From the NCBI GenBank assembly GCA_903880015.1, contig CAIRNS010000019.1, forward strand, positions 1 to 32,155: 32,155 bases of DNA. Direction: 5' to 3'. Origin of the DNA: an uncultured Elusimicrobia bacterium (GTDB lineage: Bacteria > Elusimicrobiota > Endomicrobiia > Endomicrobiales > CAIRNS01). The position numbers and the translations under genes are program-made. Position 1 is the first letter of the stretch; the number at the start of each line of letters is the position of its first letter. The notes beneath the pieces were generated by a model. The model did no database searches and was not told where the DNA came from. It was given only the letters and a program-made list of their open reading frames with translations. Shown piece by piece: positions 1,511 through 9,621 of the stretch.

Positions 1511-2170
1511 TTATTGATGTTCATCCATGTGGTGTTTGATGACCCGTCCCTCCGCGAGAAACAATACTTCTTCGCAGATATTGGTTGACAAGTCAGCGAT
1601 GCGTTCAAGATTCCCGGTGATGCGGATTATCTGCAAGGCTCGTTCGACGGTTGTCGGGTCCATTTTCATTATCGTGGTCAACTCCGAGAGGATGTGTCGT
1701 TTGAGGTCGTCAACTTCGTTGTCGCGGGCACAGACAGATCGTGCCAGGGCGGCGTCCTCATTGACAAACGCGTTGATGCTGTCGGAGAGCATCCTGACGG
1801 TCAGCTCGCCCATATGGGGTAGATCGACAAGGGGCTTGACGGGTGATCGATCGCTCAGATAGCGGGCACTTTCGGCAATGTTAACCGCATGGTCCGCCAT
1901 ACGCTCAAGGTCGTTGCTCATTCTATAAATCATTAAGACCAACCGCAGATTCTTAGCGCGGGGCTGGTACTGCGCAAGCAAGTTGGTGCATATCTCATCA
2001 ATAGCTATCTCATAGGCGTTGGCACGGGGTTCGTCCGTCGCTATGACAAGCTCATACATGCCGGGATTATTCCCCATGAGTCCCTTAAGGCATTTTTCAA
2101 CCATGGATTCTACCACAGCGGCAAAATCTATAAGCTCTTTTTTCAATCCGACAAGTTTATCATCAAGCAT
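1511..2170 (-). CDS. phoU: Phosphate transport system regulator PhoU
   Basis: A cytoplasmic all-helical protein of 219 residues, the usual PhoU length, with the two repeated PhoU domains. The first holds the segment DLERMADHAVNIAES and the second NLERIADLSTNICEE. Each is the family's E/DxxxD metal-binding helix signature. In the family PhoU links the occupancy of the PstSCAB transporter to the PhoR kinase and damps the Pho response when phosphate is plentiful. It starts at ATG 32 bp downstream of pstB and is the last gene of the porin-pstSCAB-phoU string. That order matches the classical pst operon, so co-transcription is inferred. Confidence 0.95.
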   Translation of the reverse strand: MLDDKLVGLKKELIDFAAVVESMVEKCLKGLMGNNPGMYELVIATDEPRANAYEIAIDEICTNLLAQYQPRAKNLRLVLMIYRMSNDLERMADHAVNIAESARYLSDRSPVKPLVDLPHMGELTVRMLSDSINAFVNEDAALARSVCARDNEVDDLKRHILSELTTIMKMDPTTVERALQIIRITGNLERIADLSTNICEEVLFLAEGRVIKHHMDEHQ

Positions 2171-2202: not shown

Positions 2203-2976
2203 TTATCCAAATTTTCCTGACAAGTATTCTTCAGTCCGCTTATTTTTGGGAACGGTAAAGAGTTTCTCGGTAGTGCCGAATTCAACCAGATCTCCCAGAT
2301 ACATAAATGCGGTATAGTCCGATACGCGGGACGCTTGTTGCATATTGTGGGTGACAATAACAATCGTATAATCCTTTTTGAGTTCGCCGATCAATTCTTC
2401 GATCTTTTTCGTTGAAATAGGGTCAAGGCTTGCACAGGGCTCGTCAAACAGTATAACCTCAGGTTCAACCGCAAGACAACGGGCAATACAGAGGCGCTGC
2501 TGTTGACCACCCGAGAGGCGCAAGGCGCTGTCGTTAAGACGGTCTTTAGCTTCATCCCATAAAGCAGCTTTTTTTAATGATTCCTCGACTTTGTTTTCTA
2601 TAAGGTTCTTGTCGGTTTCGCCATTAATTTCAAGACCGTAGGCGATGTTCTGAAATATGGTTTTCGGGAACGGATTCGGTTTTTGAAATACCATGCCCAC
2701 GCGCCGGCGAAGATTGACGACATCTATTTTGGGATCAAGAATGTTTTTCCCGTCAAGTATGATGCGGCCTTCCGCACGGGTGTCAGGAGTAAGGTCGTTC
2801 ATGCGGTTAAGCAGGCGGATAAAAGTTGATTTTCCGCAGCCCGAGGGACCAATGAGCGCCGTTACTTGGCGATCAAAAATGTTGAGATTAAGATCCTGAA
2901 GCGCCTGTTTTTTTCCATAAAAGAAATTCAGGTTCTCAACAGCTATCCGTGCTAATTTTACCGTTGTGTCTATCAT
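2203..2976 (-). CDS. pstB: Phosphate ABC transporter ATP-binding protein PstB
   Basis: The ATPase subunit of the high-affinity phosphate importer, 257 residues as in other PstB proteins. The Walker A motif GPSGCGKST lies at residues 43-51, the ABC signature LSGGQ at 154-158 and the Walker B VILFDEP at 174-180. The PstB-typical segments [11 protein letters not shown] and VFQKPNPFP are both present and separate it from other ABC ATPases. The start ATG is preceded by a good ribosome-binding site (GAGGAG, 5 nt spacing). It lies 12 bp after pstA and energises the PstC/PstA channel at the inner membrane. Confidence 0.97.
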
Positions 2977-2988
2977 AACAACTCCTCG

Positions 2989-3840
2989 TTAGTGGGTAAA
3001 TGCCTGTCTAAACCGTTTGCGTAAATAAATGGCAATCCCTGAAACCATGAACACTAAAACCATGAGAATAAGCGCGCAACCGTACGCGATAACGGCCTGC
3101 TGGTCAGGATGAGACCCTTCCGTCATCAAGGCGAATATATGATACGGTAAAGCCATACATTCCGATAGCGGAGAGCTCGGGTAGTCCCGCGTGAAAAAGG
3201 TTGCTGCGGTAAATAGGATTGGCGCTGTTTCCCCTGCAGCCCTGCCAATACCCAGTATGACCCCAGTTAAAACGCCGGGGAACGCGGTAGGAATAACTAC
3301 TCGTTTGATTGTCTGCCAATGCGTCGCGCCCAATGCCAGCGATGCTTCCCTCAATGAGAATGGGACTGCTGTTAATGCTTCCTGCGATGCTGAAATTATT
3401 CCGGGCAGAATCAGTATGCTCAAGGTTAAACTGCCGGAAAGTATTGAAACGCCGAACCCGCAGTATTTAACGAAAACTGCAAGGCCGAATAATCCAAAAA
3501 CAACCGAAGGCACACCGGCCAGATTGTTGATGCTCATGCGGATGATGCTGACAAAGTAACCGCGGGGCGAATATTCACAAAGATATATCGCTGTTGCCAG
3601 GCCCAATGGCAAAGCAAATAAAATGGTCCCCACAATGAGATAGAATGTGCCGATAATCGCCGGTGCAACACCGCCAGCGGTCATTGATTTCCGCGGTGCC
3701 TCGGTCAAAAATTCCCACGACAGAGCCGGTAGTCCGCGGGATACGACAAAATAAACAATAGTCGCCAGAAAAAACAAAGTAATGGCTATACAGAGAAAAA
3801 GAAACAAGAATCCGATTTTTTCGATGATTTTGTTTTTCAT
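2989..3840 (-). CDS. pstA: Phosphate ABC transporter permease PstA
   Basis: An inner-membrane permease of 283 residues with about six hydrophobic segments. The BPD_transp_1 coupling loop is visible as EASLALGATHWQTIKRVVIP, near residues 164-183. The PstA-type N-terminal feature, a short cytoplasmic tail followed by one helix and a periplasmic segment ending AGGVAPAIIGT, is also visible. Its ATG overlaps the pstC stop as ATGA, so translational coupling is likely. It forms the transmembrane pathway with PstC. Confidence 0.95.
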   Translation of the reverse strand: MKNKIIEKIGFLFLFLCIAITLFFLATIVYFVVSRGLPALSWEFLTEAPRKSMTAGGVAPAIIGTFYLIVGTILFALPLGLATAIYLCEYSPRGYFVSIIRMSINNLAGVPSVVFGLFGLAVFVKYCGFGVSILSGSLTLSILILPGIISASQEALTAVPFSLREASLALGATHWQTIKRVVIPTAFPGVLTGVILGIGRAAGETAPILFTAATFFTRDYPSSPLSECMALPYHIFALMTEGSHPDQQAVIAYGCALILMVLVFMVSGIAIYLRKRFRQAFTH

Positions 3841-4721
3841 CGGTCAAGCCCCAGCTTTATCCGGTATTTTTTGCTGATGTTCTCGGATATAATGTTGAGC
3901 GTGAGCGTCATAAGAAACAGGACAAGCCCGATGGCAAACAATGCGCTGTAGTGCAAACTGCCGGTTACGGCTTCACCCATTTCGGCAGCGATAGTGGATG
4001 TCATGGGGCGTACCGGATCAAAAATAGAGTGAGGAATCACCGCAGCGCCGCCGGATACCATCAGAACGGTCATTGTTTCGCCGACAATCCTGCTCATGCC
4101 CAGTATGATTGCGGTTGATACGCCTGATCCGGCTGCGGGAAGGACGATTTTGATAAGCGTTTGCCAACGGGATGCACCCAACGCGTACGAAGCTTCCTTG
4201 AAACTGCGCGGAACAAATCCTAATGCGTCTTCAGTAAGGCTGGCGATAGTCGGGATCGCCATAATTCCCATGACCACCGCTGCCGTAAATGCGTTGAGTC
4301 CTGTCGGGACATGGAAAATCTTTTGGACAAAAGGGGCGACAATCATCATCCCAAAAAAGCCAAAAACGATCGAAGGAACAGCTGACAATATTTCAACTGC
4401 TGGTTTTAAAATATGGCGAATACGTTCCCCCGCAAGTTCATGCAGGTAGAGCGCGCTGCCCACGCCGAGCGGAACAGCGACTACCATAGCGCCGATGGCC
4501 ACGGATAACGAAGCTATTATAAGCGGGAATATGCCGAATTCAGCAGGGTCATAGGTCGGGTACCAGTGTACTCCCGACAAAAACTTAAACGGGCCGACAG
4601 CCATCAATATCGGCAAACCCTCGCGCAATAGAACGATGATGATGCCCAATAGAAAAAACAGTGATGTAAACGCCATCACTGTAAAGATCCATCGATAGAG
4701 AGCTTCTTTAAATCTGATCAT
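3837..4721 (-). CDS. pstC: Phosphate ABC transporter permease PstC
   Basis: An inner-membrane permease of 294 residues, with six or so transmembrane segments and the coupling loop EASYALGASRWQTLIKIVLP. Family hallmarks visible are the FGIFPLIIASLSVA stretch and the SAVPSIVFGFFG motif shared by PstC and PstA. It partners PstA. A 149-bp gap containing a strong stem-loop separates it from pstS upstream, whereas pstC, pstA and pstB are tightly packed. The ribosome-binding site before the ATG is weak (GGTTGA), consistent with lower synthesis of the membrane subunits than of PstS. Confidence 0.95.
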   Translation of the reverse strand: MIRFKEALYRWIFTVMAFTSLFFLLGIIIVLLREGLPILMAVGPFKFLSGVHWYPTYDPAEFGIFPLIIASLSVAIGAMVVAVPLGVGSALYLHELAGERIRHILKPAVEILSAVPSIVFGFFGMMIVAPFVQKIFHVPTGLNAFTAAVVMGIMAIPTIASLTEDALGFVPRSFKEASYALGASRWQTLIKIVLPAAGSGVSTAIILGMSRIVGETMTVLMVSGGAAVIPHSIFDPVRPMTSTIAAEMGEAVTGSLHYSALFAIGLVLFLMTLTLNIISENISKKYRIKLGLDR

Positions 4722-4870: not shown

Positions 4871-5677
4871 TTACTTTAATGCGACGAATCCTTCTTCTTC
4901 CACCAGGGTCTGGCCGTCTTTTGACAATATAAAGTCAATAAGATCCTTTGCTGTCCCTTGTGCCGGGCCGTTGGTGTACATGAACAGCGGCCGTGAGTAC
5001 GGGTACTTGCCGGACAGAATGGTCTGCTTGGTCGCCGATATGCCATTTACGGGGACTGCTTTGACCGCACTGTTAAGGTATCCATGCCCGATGTACCCGA
5101 TGGAACCGGGTGTTTTGGCGACTACTGATGCAATGGCCTGATTTGAGGCCTGCATCAGCGCGTCAGCACGGACTTTCTTGCCGTTTAAGGCAAGTGTGGC
5201 GAACGCTTCAAAGGTTCCGCTAGCGGTGTCGCGTGAGACAATGACTATCTTTCCGTCTTTGAGTCCCAGTTTACTCCAGTTTGAGATCTTGCCTGTATAT
5301 ATGTCCTCGACCTGTTGTTTCGTGATATTCGCTAAGCTGTTCTCGGGATGAACGATGATAGCTATACCGTCCATGGCGATAACATAGGCCTTCGGCGAAA
5401 TGCCGCGTCCGGCAGCTTTCTGAAGCTCCGCGTCTTTAATGGGGCGCGAAGAGTCCGCGATATCGCATGTCTTTTCCAACAGTGAGGTTATCCCCACCCC
5501 TGATCCGCCGCCACGGACAGTAATCCGGGCGTCTTTATGTGCATTCATAAAGTCCTCTGCAGCCCGCTGAGCAATGGGCAAAACAGTGGTAGAACCGTCG
5601 ATGACAACATTGCTTCCTGCATATACCTGCACGCCCAAAGTGAGTGTGAACAGTGTTATTAACAGTTTCTTTATCAT
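4871..5677 (-). CDS. pstS: Phosphate-binding periplasmic protein PstS
   Basis: The periplasmic phosphate receptor of the Pst importer, 268 residues. The N-terminus is a classical signal peptide (residues 1-20, MIKKLLITLFTLTLG core, cleavage after VYA). Phosphate-binding loops typical of the family are visible: DGSTTV near 27-32, GGGSGVG near 57-63 and SRDTASGTFEAF near 148-159. The protein is the short PstS type of many non-enteric bacteria. Its ATG has a strong ribosome-binding site (AAGGAG, 7 nt spacing). It follows the porin by 53 bp, which contain a small hairpin but no recognisable Pho box, so transcription probably enters from the porin promoter. Confidence 0.96.
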   Translation of the reverse strand: MIKKLLITLFTLTLGVQVYAGSNVVIDGSTTVLPIAQRAAEDFMNAHKDARITVRGGGSGVGITSLLEKTCDIADSSRPIKDAELQKAAGRGISPKAYVIAMDGIAIIVHPENSLANITKQQVEDIYTGKISNWSKLGLKDGKIVIVSRDTASGTFEAFATLALNGKKVRADALMQASNQAIASVVAKTPGSIGYIGHGYLNSAVKAVPVNGISATKQTILSGKYPYSRPLFMYTNGPAQGTAKDLIDFILSKDGQTLVEEEGFVALK

Positions 5678-5730: not shown

Positions 5731-7017
5731 TTAGAACTTATACACTACATCGCACTGCAACAAGGTTTTGGGCGTTAACGAGGTTGAGTTTTTGATTAAG
5801 TCCATTGAGTAATAATCAAAAATAAGGGTGGTGGCGCTGGTCAAACCAACTGAGACGATAGCTTCCATACCCTGTGTGTTGACTGCTCCGCCGTATGTAT
5901 CAGAATCGCCCAGCTTGTTGAGCCATGCGTTAGCTTCAAGGCGCCGTGACAAATAGGTGGCCTGCCAATCGCCGAATCCTGCGATTTTTTCATTACCGAC
6001 TTTGACGCCGTACGCGCTGCCCATGGTGTCAGTGGTGGCTTTGGAATCGCTGTTGTTGGTGAAGTCGCCGAACACATTGACTGAGTAGCCCAACAGCAAT
6101 TCTTTGAAGGCAAGATTAACGCTTGGCGCAGTGATGCAATAGTCAAAAGCCGGGGTGCCGTAATAACCGGTGTATTTCCCGTTGACATTAAATTGTTCAA
6201 AGGCAACAGCCGCTTTTGCATTTATGGTATCCGTGATGTTGTATGAAGCACCGGGCTGAATAATGGTCATGTCCGGATTGTCCTGAGTTGCGCTGTTGAG
6301 TTCATTGACCACCAGGTAGCTTGCATTTAAAAAGGTGTCGACTTTTCCGAATGTCTTGGTGAAATTTACCGCAAGACCGTCAGGGTTGATATCGGTATCC
6401 CACTGCAGATCAGTAGTCTGCCAAAGCTGTGTTCCCGATTTCATTTTTCCGCCGGTTACTTTCGCCCACGAATACGGCGTATATTCTAAATATGCATAGT
6501 CAACCATCAGCATGGCTTTTGCAAAACCGTTACCAAATGTATGATTCGTCGATGTCGGTTCGGCATCAATAATTGTTGTGCCGGTTGCTGTGCCTGAACC
6601 TGTTTTTGTCGAAACGGTAACCGCACCAGCATCAAGATTTTTTTCTGAACCGGTTGCAAGACCGAACCCGGCTTTCAGATTTTCCGATATCCGGGTATCG
6701 AATCCCGTGCGCAAGCGGAGTCTTTCCCGCTCACGGACTGTGTTCCCGGTAACGGCCCAATCAATTTGATGACGAAGGCGCAAGTCACCCTTCATGGAAA
6801 TGTTCTGTATCCAATACGGAAGCGTGTCATGTTTCCCCTGAGCGATAAGCGAACGAGATGCTTCTTTGGTTTCAGTCATCACCTGCTGAGCTTCTCCATA
6901 ATTGATGATGCCTTTCTCTGCCAAGAGATTGGCAAGGCTGTCCACTTCACTGGCAAAACCGACTGCTGATACCATCATTGCTACAACTACGCCTGCTACT
7001 ACACGTTTTACTTTCAT
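5731..7017 (-). CDS. Outer-membrane porin, probable phosphate-starvation porin
   Basis: A predicted beta-barrel protein of 429 residues. From the ATG at 7017 it has a signal peptide (MKVKRVVAGVVVAMM core, cleavage after VGFA). A short helical segment follows (SLANLLAEKGIINYGEAQ), of the kind found at the N-terminus of putative porins of the Porin_5/OprO-P-like type. Many alternating hydrophobic strands run to a terminal Phe (CDVVYKF), the usual BAM recognition end. The start at 7017 is chosen because AAGGAG lies 6 nt upstream. A longer reading to 7044 would add nine residues before the signal peptide. It heads the pst operon directly behind a Pho box, so a role in phosphate passage across the outer membrane is inferred from context. 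The substrate is not readable from sequence. Confidence 0.85.
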   Translation of the reverse strand: MKVKRVVAGVVVAMMVSAVGFASEVDSLANLLAEKGIINYGEAQQVMTETKEASRSLIAQGKHDTLPYWIQNISMKGDLRLRHQIDWAVTGNTVRERERLRLRTGFDTRISENLKAGFGLATGSEKNLDAGAVTVSTKTGSGTATGTTIIDAEPTSTNHTFGNGFAKAMLMVDYAYLEYTPYSWAKVTGGKMKSGTQLWQTTDLQWDTDINPDGLAVNFTKTFGKVDTFLNASYLVVNELNSATQDNPDMTIIQPGASYNITDTINAKAAVAFEQFNVNGKYTGYYGTPAFDYCITAPSVNLAFKELLLGYSVNVFGDFTNNSDSKATTDTMGSAYGVKVGNEKIAGFGDWQATYLSRRLEANAWLNKLGDSDTYGGAVNTQGMEAIVSVGLTSATTLIFDYYSMDLIKNSTSLTPKTLLQCDVVYKF

Positions 7018-7109
7018 GGTAACTCCTTTTGTTTTTTTCCACACTTTGAATGTGGTAATTATTCTTAAATATGTTTTACTGCTCGTCGTGTGTGATGCTG
7101 TATGGCGTC

Positions 7110-7163
7110 ATTCTACCATTAGCGTGTTAATGCATGATAAACGTATTGTTAATTTTGTGTTAA
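7110..7163 (-). promoter_or_regulatory. Pho box and -10 element for porin-pst operon
   Basis: On the - strand, reading toward the porin, four hexamers start exactly 11 bp apart: TTAACA (7163-7158), TTAACA (7152-7147), TTTATC (7141-7136) and TTAACA (7130-7125). Nine bp further on is a TAGAAT -10 (7115-7110). Tandem 11-bp repeats placed upstream of a -10 with no separate -35 are the known layout of PhoB/PhoP-activated promoters. The TTAACA form resembles the Bacillus-type box more than the enteric CTGTCAT. phoB and phoR lie immediately upstream, so PhoB is the expected activator. This leaves a leader of roughly 85 nt before the porin. Confidence 0.85.
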
Positions 7164-7200: not shown

Positions 7201-8940
7201 CTATTGATGGACAGCTGGCAGAGTGACAGTAAATGTGGTTCCCTTGCCTATAGTGCTTGAGACCGTTATGGATCCTTCATGTATATTGACGATGTGTTTT
7301 ACGATGGACAGTCCGAGCCCGGTGCCACCTATCTTTTTTGAACGAGATGTGTCAGCTACAAAGAAGCGTTCGAATATGCGCGTCAGCAATCCAGAGGGGA
7401 TGCCGGGGCCGGTGTCCGCAATTTCCATGATGATCTTTTCCGTATCTTTGTGCAAAGAAATAATAATTTCTCCGTGGTCAGTGTATTTGACGGCATTGTC
7501 GATAAGGTTAATGAGGACTTGCTCAAATTTTGAGGTGTCGATCATTACTCTATATTGTTCTGCATCTGTTTTGAGGGTGATGCGCAGTTTCTTGTCGTTG
7601 ACGCGCGGTTGGAACATAACGATGATATCGTTAATGACGGTTACCAGGTTCTGCGGTTGGAGTTGCAGTGTAAAGAGAGGATTCTCAACCTCAGAAAGAA
7701 GCAGCAGATCTTCTACTATATGAATTAATCGGTCTGTATGGCGGCTTATGATGTCCAGATACCGTTTCTCTTCGCTGTCGGCGGTGTCTTCCAGCGTCTC
7801 GACAAAGCCCTTGATTGCGGTAAGCGGGGTTCGCAGTTCGTGCGAAACATTGGCGATAAGATCCTTTTTAACAGTTTCTAGTTTCTTCTCTTCCGTTATG
7901 TCCTGGAGTAGTACCACATATTCGTCACCTGTTGGTAATTTCGATATGCCACATACATAACTGAGTCCGCCATGCTCAAAGGATCCCTTTGTATGCGGTG
8001 CACCCGCCAAGGACTGCTTGATGAGATTCTCAAAAGCCGGTTCACGGAAGATTTCCCAGTAATACCGACCTTCAATAGATGATTGCCGGCATACTACTTT
8101 AAAGCCGGCATTTGCCATCAGTATCCTGCCGTCTTTTGAAACAACAAATAATGATTCATTGATGGCAGACAGTATGGTGTTAATCTCTTCGGTGCGTCCG
8201 GAAACTTCGGCGAAAAGATCATTGATCTTGGCGGCCATAGTATTAAATGAATGGCCCAATGCCATAATTTCTCGTGAACTGTGGATTTTTACGCGCGCAG
8301 AAAAATCGCCTTGCGCCATAGTCTCCGCCGCACTCTGCAATTCTTTCAACGAACGCGACAAAGTGCGGGATACTACAATAGCTCCGGCGAGTGCAAGCAG
8401 TACGATAATGCCGGTTGTTTTAAGTAAATGCAGTTTCAATGTGTGTATGAGTGCGTTGAATTCACTCACCAACATGCTGACGCGGATGATATAGTGCTCC
8501 GGTGCAGCCGATGCCAGCGACAGCGGAACCGCTACATACAGCATGTCCTGCTTGACGGTAGTGCTATAGCGTACCGCACGGCCGACATTTCCCTTGATTG
8601 CCTCCTGAATCTCCGGCCGGCCGCTGTGGTTTTCCATAAGCTGTGGTTTGCCTTCAGAATCAGCTATGACCGAACCGTCCATGTTGATGACGGTTATACG
8701 CCGATGAATCTGTTGGTCGATGCGGGTGACCAATGGTTGAACATCGGCAAAATGACCGTGTTCAAGTAGTGGTTTAATTTGTTCATGGAGGGTGATGGCG
8801 AGCGCGCTTAGGTCAGCTGACTGGGAGTGCAGATATGATGCGCGTATTCCGGTAAAAGTAACGGCCACAAACGCGGCACTTACCGTTAAAACAAGAAGCA
8901 TAAAAGCCCCGAACAAACGGGAAAAAAGTGAATGATTCAT
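7201..8940 (-). CDS. phoR: Phosphate regulon sensor histidine kinase PhoR
   Basis: A membrane histidine kinase of 579 residues. It has TM1 (about 9-32), a periplasmic sensory region of roughly 140 residues, TM2 (about 172-190), HAMP (190-243) and PAS (250-345). HisKA contains SHELRTPLTAIKGF with the phospho-acceptor His367. The HATPase domain (465-577) contains NLIDNA (N box), DTGPGIP (G1) and GGTGLGLSI (G2). The PAS-HisKA arrangement and the position beside phoB and pst identify it as PhoR. The sizeable periplasmic domain differs from E. coli PhoR but is common in other phyla. It starts 3 bp after the phoB stop. Confidence 0.93.
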   Translation of the reverse strand: MNHSLFSRLFGAFMLLVLTVSAAFVAVTFTGIRASYLHSQSADLSALAITLHEQIKPLLEHGHFADVQPLVTRIDQQIHRRITVINMDGSVIADSEGKPQLMENHSGRPEIQEAIKGNVGRAVRYSTTVKQDMLYVAVPLSLASAAPEHYIIRVSMLVSEFNALIHTLKLHLLKTTGIIVLLALAGAIVVSRTLSRSLKELQSAAETMAQGDFSARVKIHSSREIMALGHSFNTMAAKINDLFAEVSGRTEEINTILSAINESLFVVSKDGRILMANAGFKVVCRQSSIEGRYYWEIFREPAFENLIKQSLAGAPHTKGSFEHGGLSYVCGISKLPTGDEYVVLLQDITEEKKLETVKKDLIANVSHELRTPLTAIKGFVETLEDTADSEEKRYLDIISRHTDRLIHIVEDLLLLSEVENPLFTLQLQPQNLVTVINDIIVMFQPRVNDKKLRITLKTDAEQYRVMIDTSKFEQVLINLIDNAVKYTDHGEIIISLHKDTEKIIMEIADTGPGIPSGLLTRIFERFFVADTSRSKKIGGTGLGLSIVKHIVNIHEGSITVSSTIGKGTTFTVTLPAVHQ

Positions 8941-8943
8941 GTC

Positions 8944-9621
8944 TTAATCGAGTTTATAACCGATGCCGCGGATATTCTTGATGGATTTTCCTGCAGGACC
9001 TAGCTTTTCGCGCAGATTTTTTATGTGCACATCAATTGTGCGGTCAAGCACGATTTTATCGTCACCCCAGAGCTGGTCAAGTATTTTGTCGCGCGAAAAA
9101 ACCGTGCCGCGTTTAGCGTTAAGCAGTTCCAATATTTTCATCTCCGTTGTTGTTAAAATAATGGATTTCCCATTAACTGAAGCGGTGAACTGCTCAAAAT
9201 TTACGCGGATGCCGCCGCCGAGATCAGCGCTGAGAGGATGTGCCTGGACTGATTTTCTTTTGAGAATTACTTTTACGCGGGCAACTAATTCCCGGGGTGA
9301 AAAAGGTTTTGTCATATAATCATCAGCCCCGATCTCAAGGCCGATAAGCTTATCGGTTTCTTCCCCTTTTGCGCTCAGCATAATCACGGGGATAGATTCG
9401 TATTTAGATTCCCGCTTAATCTGTTTGCAGATGTCGAAGCCGTTCATGTCCGGCAGCATCAAGTCCAGAACAATAAGATCGGGGATGGTCGTTTTAAGGA
9501 ACTTGAAAAATGTTTTTCCATCAACGAATGTTTTTGCCGTGTACCCGTTTTTCTTAAGGTTCACCGCAATCAATTCGGCTATATCTTCCTCGTCGTCTAC
9601 TACCGCAATAAGTTCGTTCAT
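8944..9621 (-). CDS. phoB: Phosphate regulon response regulator PhoB
   Basis: An OmpR-class response regulator of 225 residues. The receiver domain has the acidic pair Asp9/Asp10, phospho-acceptor Asp53 in LIVLDLMLPDMNG and Lys105 in YMTKPF. The C-terminal winged-helix domain (about 120-225) ends with the typical DVHIKNLREKLG and IRGIGYKL segments. It lies 5 bp after the UbiA-like gene and 3 bp before phoR, so the three are probably one transcript. It should bind the 11-bp repeats before the porin. Confidence 0.94.
   Translation of the reverse strand: MNELIAVVDDEEDIAELIAVNLKKNGYTAKTFVDGKTFFKFLKTTIPDLIVLDLMLPDMNGFDICKQIKRESKYESIPVIMLSAKGEETDKLIGLEIGADDYMTKPFSPRELVARVKVILKRKSVQAHPLSADLGGGIRVNFEQFTASVNGKSIILTTTEMKILELLNAKRGTVFSRDKILDQLWGDDKIVLDRTIDVHIKNLREKLGPAGKSIKNIRGIGYKLD

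Follow-up and report, generated by a model that had tools for sequence, protein, structure and literature searches.

The 54 bp between positions 7163 and 7110 on the minus strand of the window (the whole stretch of DNA analysed, 32,155 nucleotides) have all the marks of a phosphate-starvation promoter of the genes porin-pstSCAB-phoU, very likely one activated by PhoB, with direct repeats in the place of the -35 element. Sequence and position make it very probable that PhoB truly docks on these repeats, ahead of phosphate-uptake genes. We have high confidence that the site, as its sequence reads, is a well-conserved new example of a well-known type of switch.

The element between phoR and the porin gene

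The window is the entire contig C19 of a 1.81-Mb genome, which is assembled in 31 contigs and is 99.9% complete. On its minus strand, the element reads TTAACA-N5-TTAACA-N5-TTTATC-N5-TTAACA-N9-TAGAAT from 7163 to 7110 (54 bp). The first-pass annotation had placed hexamers at 7158, 7147, 7136 and 7125, spaced by 11 bp and followed 9 bp further on by TAGAAT. These values are exact, the positions being the low-coordinate ends of the hexamers. The components are as follows (the phylum profile is described in the next section):

7158..7163, minus strand: repeat 1, TTAACA; exact TTAACA in 31 of the 40 phylum profile matches
7147..7152, minus strand: repeat 2, TTAACA; exact TTAACA in 26 of the 40 profile matches
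7136..7141, minus strand: repeat 3, TTTATC; TTTATT or TTTATA in relatives, TTAACA in 0 of the 40 profile matches
7125..7130, minus strand: repeat 4, TTAACA; TTAAT or TTAAC in relatives
7110..7115, minus strand: -10 element TAGAAT, 9 bp past repeat 4; 36 of the 40 profile matches have TANNNT at the same distance

The pitch of the hexamers is exactly 11 bp. Repeats 1, 2 and 4 are identical, and repeat 3 matches TTAACA at three of six positions. The arrangement is that of a Pho box, i.e., at least two direct repeats at a pitch of 11 bp (about seven conserved and four variable bases) that replace the -35 element and end about 10 bp before the -10 element; here the distance to TAGAAT is 9 bp and there is no TTGACA-like -35 hexamer.

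A general repeat finder returned no family of direct repeats in the window, and the hexamers were located by pattern and script scans. Together, the four hexamers are identical to TTAACA at 21 of 24 positions, a value reached by none of 200 dinucleotide shuffles of the window (mean 16.1, maximum 19). When any hexamer was accepted at a pitch of 10 to 12 bp, three identical copies in four slots occurred once in the window and in one of 60 shuffles. With up to three mismatches allowed, the three-hexamer pattern marked no place but this box among the 1,808,027 bases of the genome, as two overlapping matches, a count that is weak taken alone because the reversed control likewise gave two. The perfect pair TTAACA-N5-TTAACA occurs nowhere else in the genome; with up to one mismatch, the pair has four matches, versus 11 for the reversed control. 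The profile scan is stronger evidence than the three-hexamer count: in its own genome the window site, which is among the 17 training sites, has E = 2.6e-10 and the next best place 0.008. With the window site left out, a matrix built from the other 16 sites gives it 32.9, versus -2.7 for the runner-up within the window.

The element sits in the 183-bp gap between the phoR-like and porin genes, within a run of minus-strand genes in the order phoB-like, phoR-like, box, porin, pstS, pstC, pstA, pstB and phoU:

8944..9621, minus strand: phoB-like response regulator, presumed to bind the box; best match TIGR02154 (PhoB), 228 bits, below the cut-off of 296.2
7201..8940, minus strand: phoR/pnpS-like histidine kinase; best match NF046044 (PnpS), 337.1 bits, below the cut-off of 400; ends 37 bp upstream of repeat 1
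5731..7017, minus strand: porin (PF16930, Porin_5), first gene past the promoter; start codon ATG at 7017, shortly preceded by AAGGAG
4871..5677, minus strand: pstS, phosphate-binding protein; TIGR02136, 268.5 bits, above the cut-off of 206.6
3837..4721, minus strand: pstC; TIGR02138, 281 bits, above the cut-off of 196.45
2989..3840, minus strand: pstA; TIGR00974, 300.2 bits, above the cut-off of 193.45
2203..2976, minus strand: pstB; TIGR00972, 403.8 bits, above the cut-off of 343.2
1511..2170, minus strand: phoU; TIGR02135, 180.1 bits, above the cut-off of 130.25

The four pst genes and phoU thus exceed the curated NCBIfam cut-offs. For PhoB and PhoR the Pho families rank first, yet the cut-offs are missed, which counts against the PhoB reading. 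Homologues of PstS were found at 17 loci; many of the closest named ones are from Elusimicrobiota, including Endomicrobiaceae, and the loci of lower identity from other phyla. On this basis the genome is assigned to Elusimicrobiota, close to the Endomicrobia. The porin leader also carries a short hairpin, CCACA-N7-TGTGG (window 7039-7055), with the AAGGAG ribosome site about 10 bases further on.

Conservation in Elusimicrobiota and the third repeat

Homologues of the porin are present in 19 of the 59 genomes of the order sample (own genome included), and 17 of the 20 upstream loci that we scanned carry the same element. At four of these 20 loci the best match was not a box: L011 (G009), L021 (G014), L029 (a second, partial match in G047) and L024 (G015). 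The box of G015 was found at a lower rank and put into training, and that of G009 is a weaker, 34-bit site. Only sites at which a box could be recognised, 17 with that of the window, entered the training set. Located upstream of porin homologues, they align without gaps over 54 bp and with identical spacing, giving the consensus TTAACA-N5-TTAACA-N5-TTTATT-N5-TTAA(T/C)-N10-TATNAT, the last element of which is equidistant in all.

At E ≤ 0.001, the profile made from these 17 sites matched 40 places, spread over 31 of the 247 genomes of the phylum; 16 of the 31 had provided training sites and 15 had not. The motif is spread over several families and classes of Elusimicrobiota. The first recognisable downstream gene was a porin homologue at 23 sites, pstS at six, Porin_O_P at two and pstC at one. 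An unknown ORF followed by pstS was found once, and a small sigma-type ORF (once after a short ORF) followed by the porin three times. The other sites precede genes for a PhoB-like receiver, an ArsC-like protein followed by a PhoB paralogue, Ppx/GppA, and a YtkA-domain protein (one each). Overall, 39 of the 40 sites lie before porin, pst, phoB-like or polyphosphatase genes, or before a run leading there; the remaining one (G009) lies before the YtkA-domain gene, which is directly behind phoR. The interpretation of the element as an operator and promoter of the Pho-box type, already put forward in the first-pass annotation, is therefore well founded: phoB and phoR lie upstream, porin-pstSCAB-phoU downstream, and the module recurs before porin and pst genes, i.e., before genes of the phosphate regulon, in relatives.

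In several relatives, the space between phoR and the porin encodes a small sigma-70-type protein of about 155-172 aa, often preceded by a Pho-type box of its own. Regions 2 and 4 were matched by Pfam in both of the proteins scanned, and NCBIfam sigma models matched five. The phoR-porin gap of the window has no such ORF. The small sigma-70-type ORFs are:

L128:1594-2076 (G002)
L126:1045-1509 (G006)
L130:10-528 (G007)
L133:1751-2263 (G076)
L134:1581-2090 (G087)
L161 (G155, by eye)

Counts of the third repeat among profile matches are partly circular, because the profile itself encodes this repeat. Hence, we searched the same 247 genomes with the profile-free pattern TTAACA-N5-TTAACA-N16-TTAA, which leaves repeat 3 free. 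It had 26 matches in 20 genomes, versus one for the reversed control, and 23 of the 26 were at pho, pst or porin genes. The matches in G234 and G050 lie away from phosphate genes, and that in G232 (contig C174) is at a contig end where nothing matched the pho/pst proteins of the window. The third hexamer is [CT]T[TCA]AT[TAC] in 23 of the 26 matches and TTAACA in a single one (G074, before pstS), the other two being those of G234 and G050. At positions 4-5, repeat 3 has AT where the other repeats have AC, in all 40 profile sites and in 23 of the 26 matches of the free pattern. The third repeat of the window is therefore a conserved feature and not the product of decay. To regard it as an imperfect copy would be wrong: relatives have a conserved, distinct sequence in its place (TTTATT/TTTATA), with TTAACA in 0 of 40 and 1 of 26 matches. 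Our inference is that this half-site differs from the others on purpose.

Repeat 3 could also be composite, filling the -35 slot and being read mainly by sigma region 4, with PhoB on repeats 1, 2 and 4. We regard this reading, which modifies the best explanation rather than opposing it, as possible but on the unlikely side. The constant AT for AC at positions 4-5 would fit, a 17-bp spacer would start a -35 hexamer at the fourth base of repeat 3, and the pstS promoter of E. coli likewise deviates at its third repeat. However, the slot is unlike TTGACA: at a distance of 16-18 bp, the best match to this hexamer has four of six positions, in one of the 40 sites, and at most three in the other 39. 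Moreover, TTTATT is still a plausible weak half-site for PhoB, and TTTATATT units appear in some of the cyanobacterial boxes of Table 1 in PMC1906773. More speculatively still, the Pho promoters of Elusimicrobiota might be unequal composite operators, in which a strong PhoB pair (repeats 1-2) is combined with a fixed third unit, cTTTAT, in the -35 slot that PhoB and sigma region 4 recognise together; the small sigma-70-type protein of several relatives could be a dedicated partner of these promoters.

The probable regulator and its regulon

In the preferred reading, PhoB would bind all four repeats. Of 59 relatives, the own genome among them, 23 have a close PhoB and 36 do not; sites at E ≤ 0.001 were found in 19 of the former and in none of the latter (Fisher, 6e-12), where close means E < 1e-60, a limit chosen after a gap in the data was seen. 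Training sites came from 16 of these 19 genomes, which reduces the independent part of the test to the held-out relatives: three of seven with a close PhoB have sites, versus none of 36 without (p about 0.003 by hand calculation). G014, G039, G054 and G055 encode PhoB but show no site at E ≤ 0.001; the last three are 78-85% complete. A regulator of the PhoB type is thus encoded in the genome and co-occurs with the box, with the qualification that its best family is PhoB at a score under the curated cut-off and that the held-out sample is small.

The PhoB of the window is 40% identical to that of E. coli. Four E. coli residues that PMC3348028 ties to polymerase contact (W184, G185, V190 and D192) are all identical in it, whereas none of the four is shared by the genome's only other OmpR-family regulator. 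The protein falls short of the equivalog model TIGR02154 (228 vs 296.2 bits). We call it PhoB-like because its neighbourhood and the sigma-contact residues support the assignment while this cut-off is missed.

Tandem repeats with a pitch of about 11 bp are used by several winged-helix regulators, and the genome encodes a second Trans_reg_C protein, on contig C28. It is nevertheless improbable that another OmpR-family regulator, instead of PhoB, binds the repeats: this second protein lacks all four sigma-contact residues, its relatives extend to genomes that have no close PhoB, such as G010, G011, G020 and G023, which lack a full-length box, and the box keeps company with phoBR and pst genes throughout. 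Least probable of all is an ordinary sigma70 promoter with TTAACA as -35 and AT-rich repeats arisen by chance, for although the region is AT-rich and a consensus scan scores TTAACA at 7163, an 18-bp spacer and TATCAT at 10 of 12, no shuffle reached the four-repeat score, the 54-bp conservation across families spans all four repeats and the downstream -10 element, and the alternative -10, TATCAT, is not conserved in relatives.

Activation by PhoB would proceed as follows. When phosphate is scarce, the adjoining kinase would phosphorylate the PhoB-like regulator, the dimers of which would bind the 11-bp repeats head-to-tail on one face of the DNA, probably loading first on the strong TTAACA pair (repeats 1-2), with cooperative filling of repeats 3-4 to follow. 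From the downstream repeats, PhoB would contact sigma region 4 in place of a -35 element and recruit RNA polymerase to TAGAAT, and the genes would be induced by phosphate limitation. Direct repeats near a -10 element without a -35, with PhoB substituting for the latter and contacting sigma, are a layout described in PMC4415409 and PMC3348028, and hierarchical and cooperative loading of PhoB dimers is described in PMC4415409.

The regulon expected from the first-pass annotation was only partly recovered. Scanning the genome gave a strong site before porin-pst, but no large regulon and no site before an alkaline phosphatase or another porin. There is one strong site and one plausible second, and a single strong site counts against the PhoB reading. 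The second (C28:32291-32322) has E = 0.008, aligned over profile positions 1-32. Scored by the matrix over all 54 positions it reaches 26.0; its third unit is TTTATT, and it includes a TATAAT. Its score alone is no proof, because partial matches of similar E occur in genomes without a close PhoB. A gap of 6 bp separates its -10 element from the downstream ATG of a family-21 glycosyltransferase (PF13506; the nearest NCBIfam model, HpnI, is below cut-off). The run at C28:28501-33082 (L156:2-4583) comprises genes for a calcineurin-like phosphoesterase, the box, and genes for the glycosyltransferase, a GlgC-like protein and a DUF6938 protein.

In six relatives with the glycosyltransferase gene, G002 included, no comparable box was found within 1.5 kb upstream (best scores 3.6 and 1.0, vs 26.0). 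In G002 a strong box lies farther upstream, and the glycosyltransferase homologue is in the run behind it, after genes for a PhoB-like receiver and a large protein (weak glycosyltransferase-4 match) and before one for a DUF6938 protein (weak MGDG-synthase match). From its sequence, the C28 box is a plausible second Pho site of the genome. Published work on other bacteria describes glycolipids taking the place of phospholipids when phosphate is short, so it is a reasonable guess that the C28 run contains candidate phosphate-saving glycolipid or glycan genes, a lipid-remodelling branch of the regulon.

At several of these promoters the -10 element ends 6-8 bp before the predicted start codon: the C28 site (L138:1464-1470), L129 (Ppx/GppA, G002), and L128 and L126 (sigma ORFs). 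Their messages would therefore be leaderless, unlike that of the porin promoter, which has a leader of roughly 90 bases. Two ORFs beside weaker boxes, L129:1734-3101 (456 aa, G002) and L136:3-1562 (520 aa, G015), had no Pfam match at E ≤ 0.001.

The titles and opening lines of abstracts retrieved for Elusimicrobia with Pho terms contained no paper on Pho boxes of this phylum. The profile gives a transferable definition of a phosphate-starvation promoter for a largely uncultured phylum, and the Pho regulon can therefore be read from metagenome assemblies.

Comparison with known Pho boxes

The element resembles the PhoP box of Bacillus subtilis, where a Firmicute regulator uses four repeats of TTAACA-like hexamers at a pitch of about 11 bp. 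It also resembles the pstS promoter of E. coli K-12, CTGTCAT-AAAA-CTGTCAT-ATTC-CTTACAT-ATAA-CTGTCAC-N10-TATTTT, which likewise has four direct repeats for PhoB at a pitch of 11 bp, a deviant third unit, a replaced -35 and a close -10 element (layout as in PMC4415409). The distance from the last repeat to the -10 is 10 bp in E. coli pstS, counted from the last 7-mer, versus 9 bp here; PMC1906773 gives about 10 bp for the E. coli Pho box. The units themselves differ, CTGTCAT there and (c)TTAACA here, and the first-pass annotation was right to set the hexamer apart from the enteric form. This mismatch leaves membership of the wider class of Pho boxes intact, because the consensus is species-dependent according to PMC4415409.

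To call the hexamer the lineage's own Pho motif, as was proposed, is too strong: TTAAC-type repeats of 11 bp have been published for the cyanobacterial regulator SphR (CTTAACCT, PMC1906773). The likeness lies in the TTAAC core and in the pitch (8+3 = 11 bp), and SphR boxes are described in the same paper as having at least three tandem units before pst, sphX or phoA genes. The difference lies in the last two bases, CT in SphR boxes and A plus a variable base here, and in the fixed set of four units here, the third of them distinct, an arrangement that the passages of PMC1906773 on SphR boxes do not describe. The recurrence of a TTAAC-type box with a deviant third repeat so far from enteric bacteria bears on the role of unequal half-sites in activation by PhoB.
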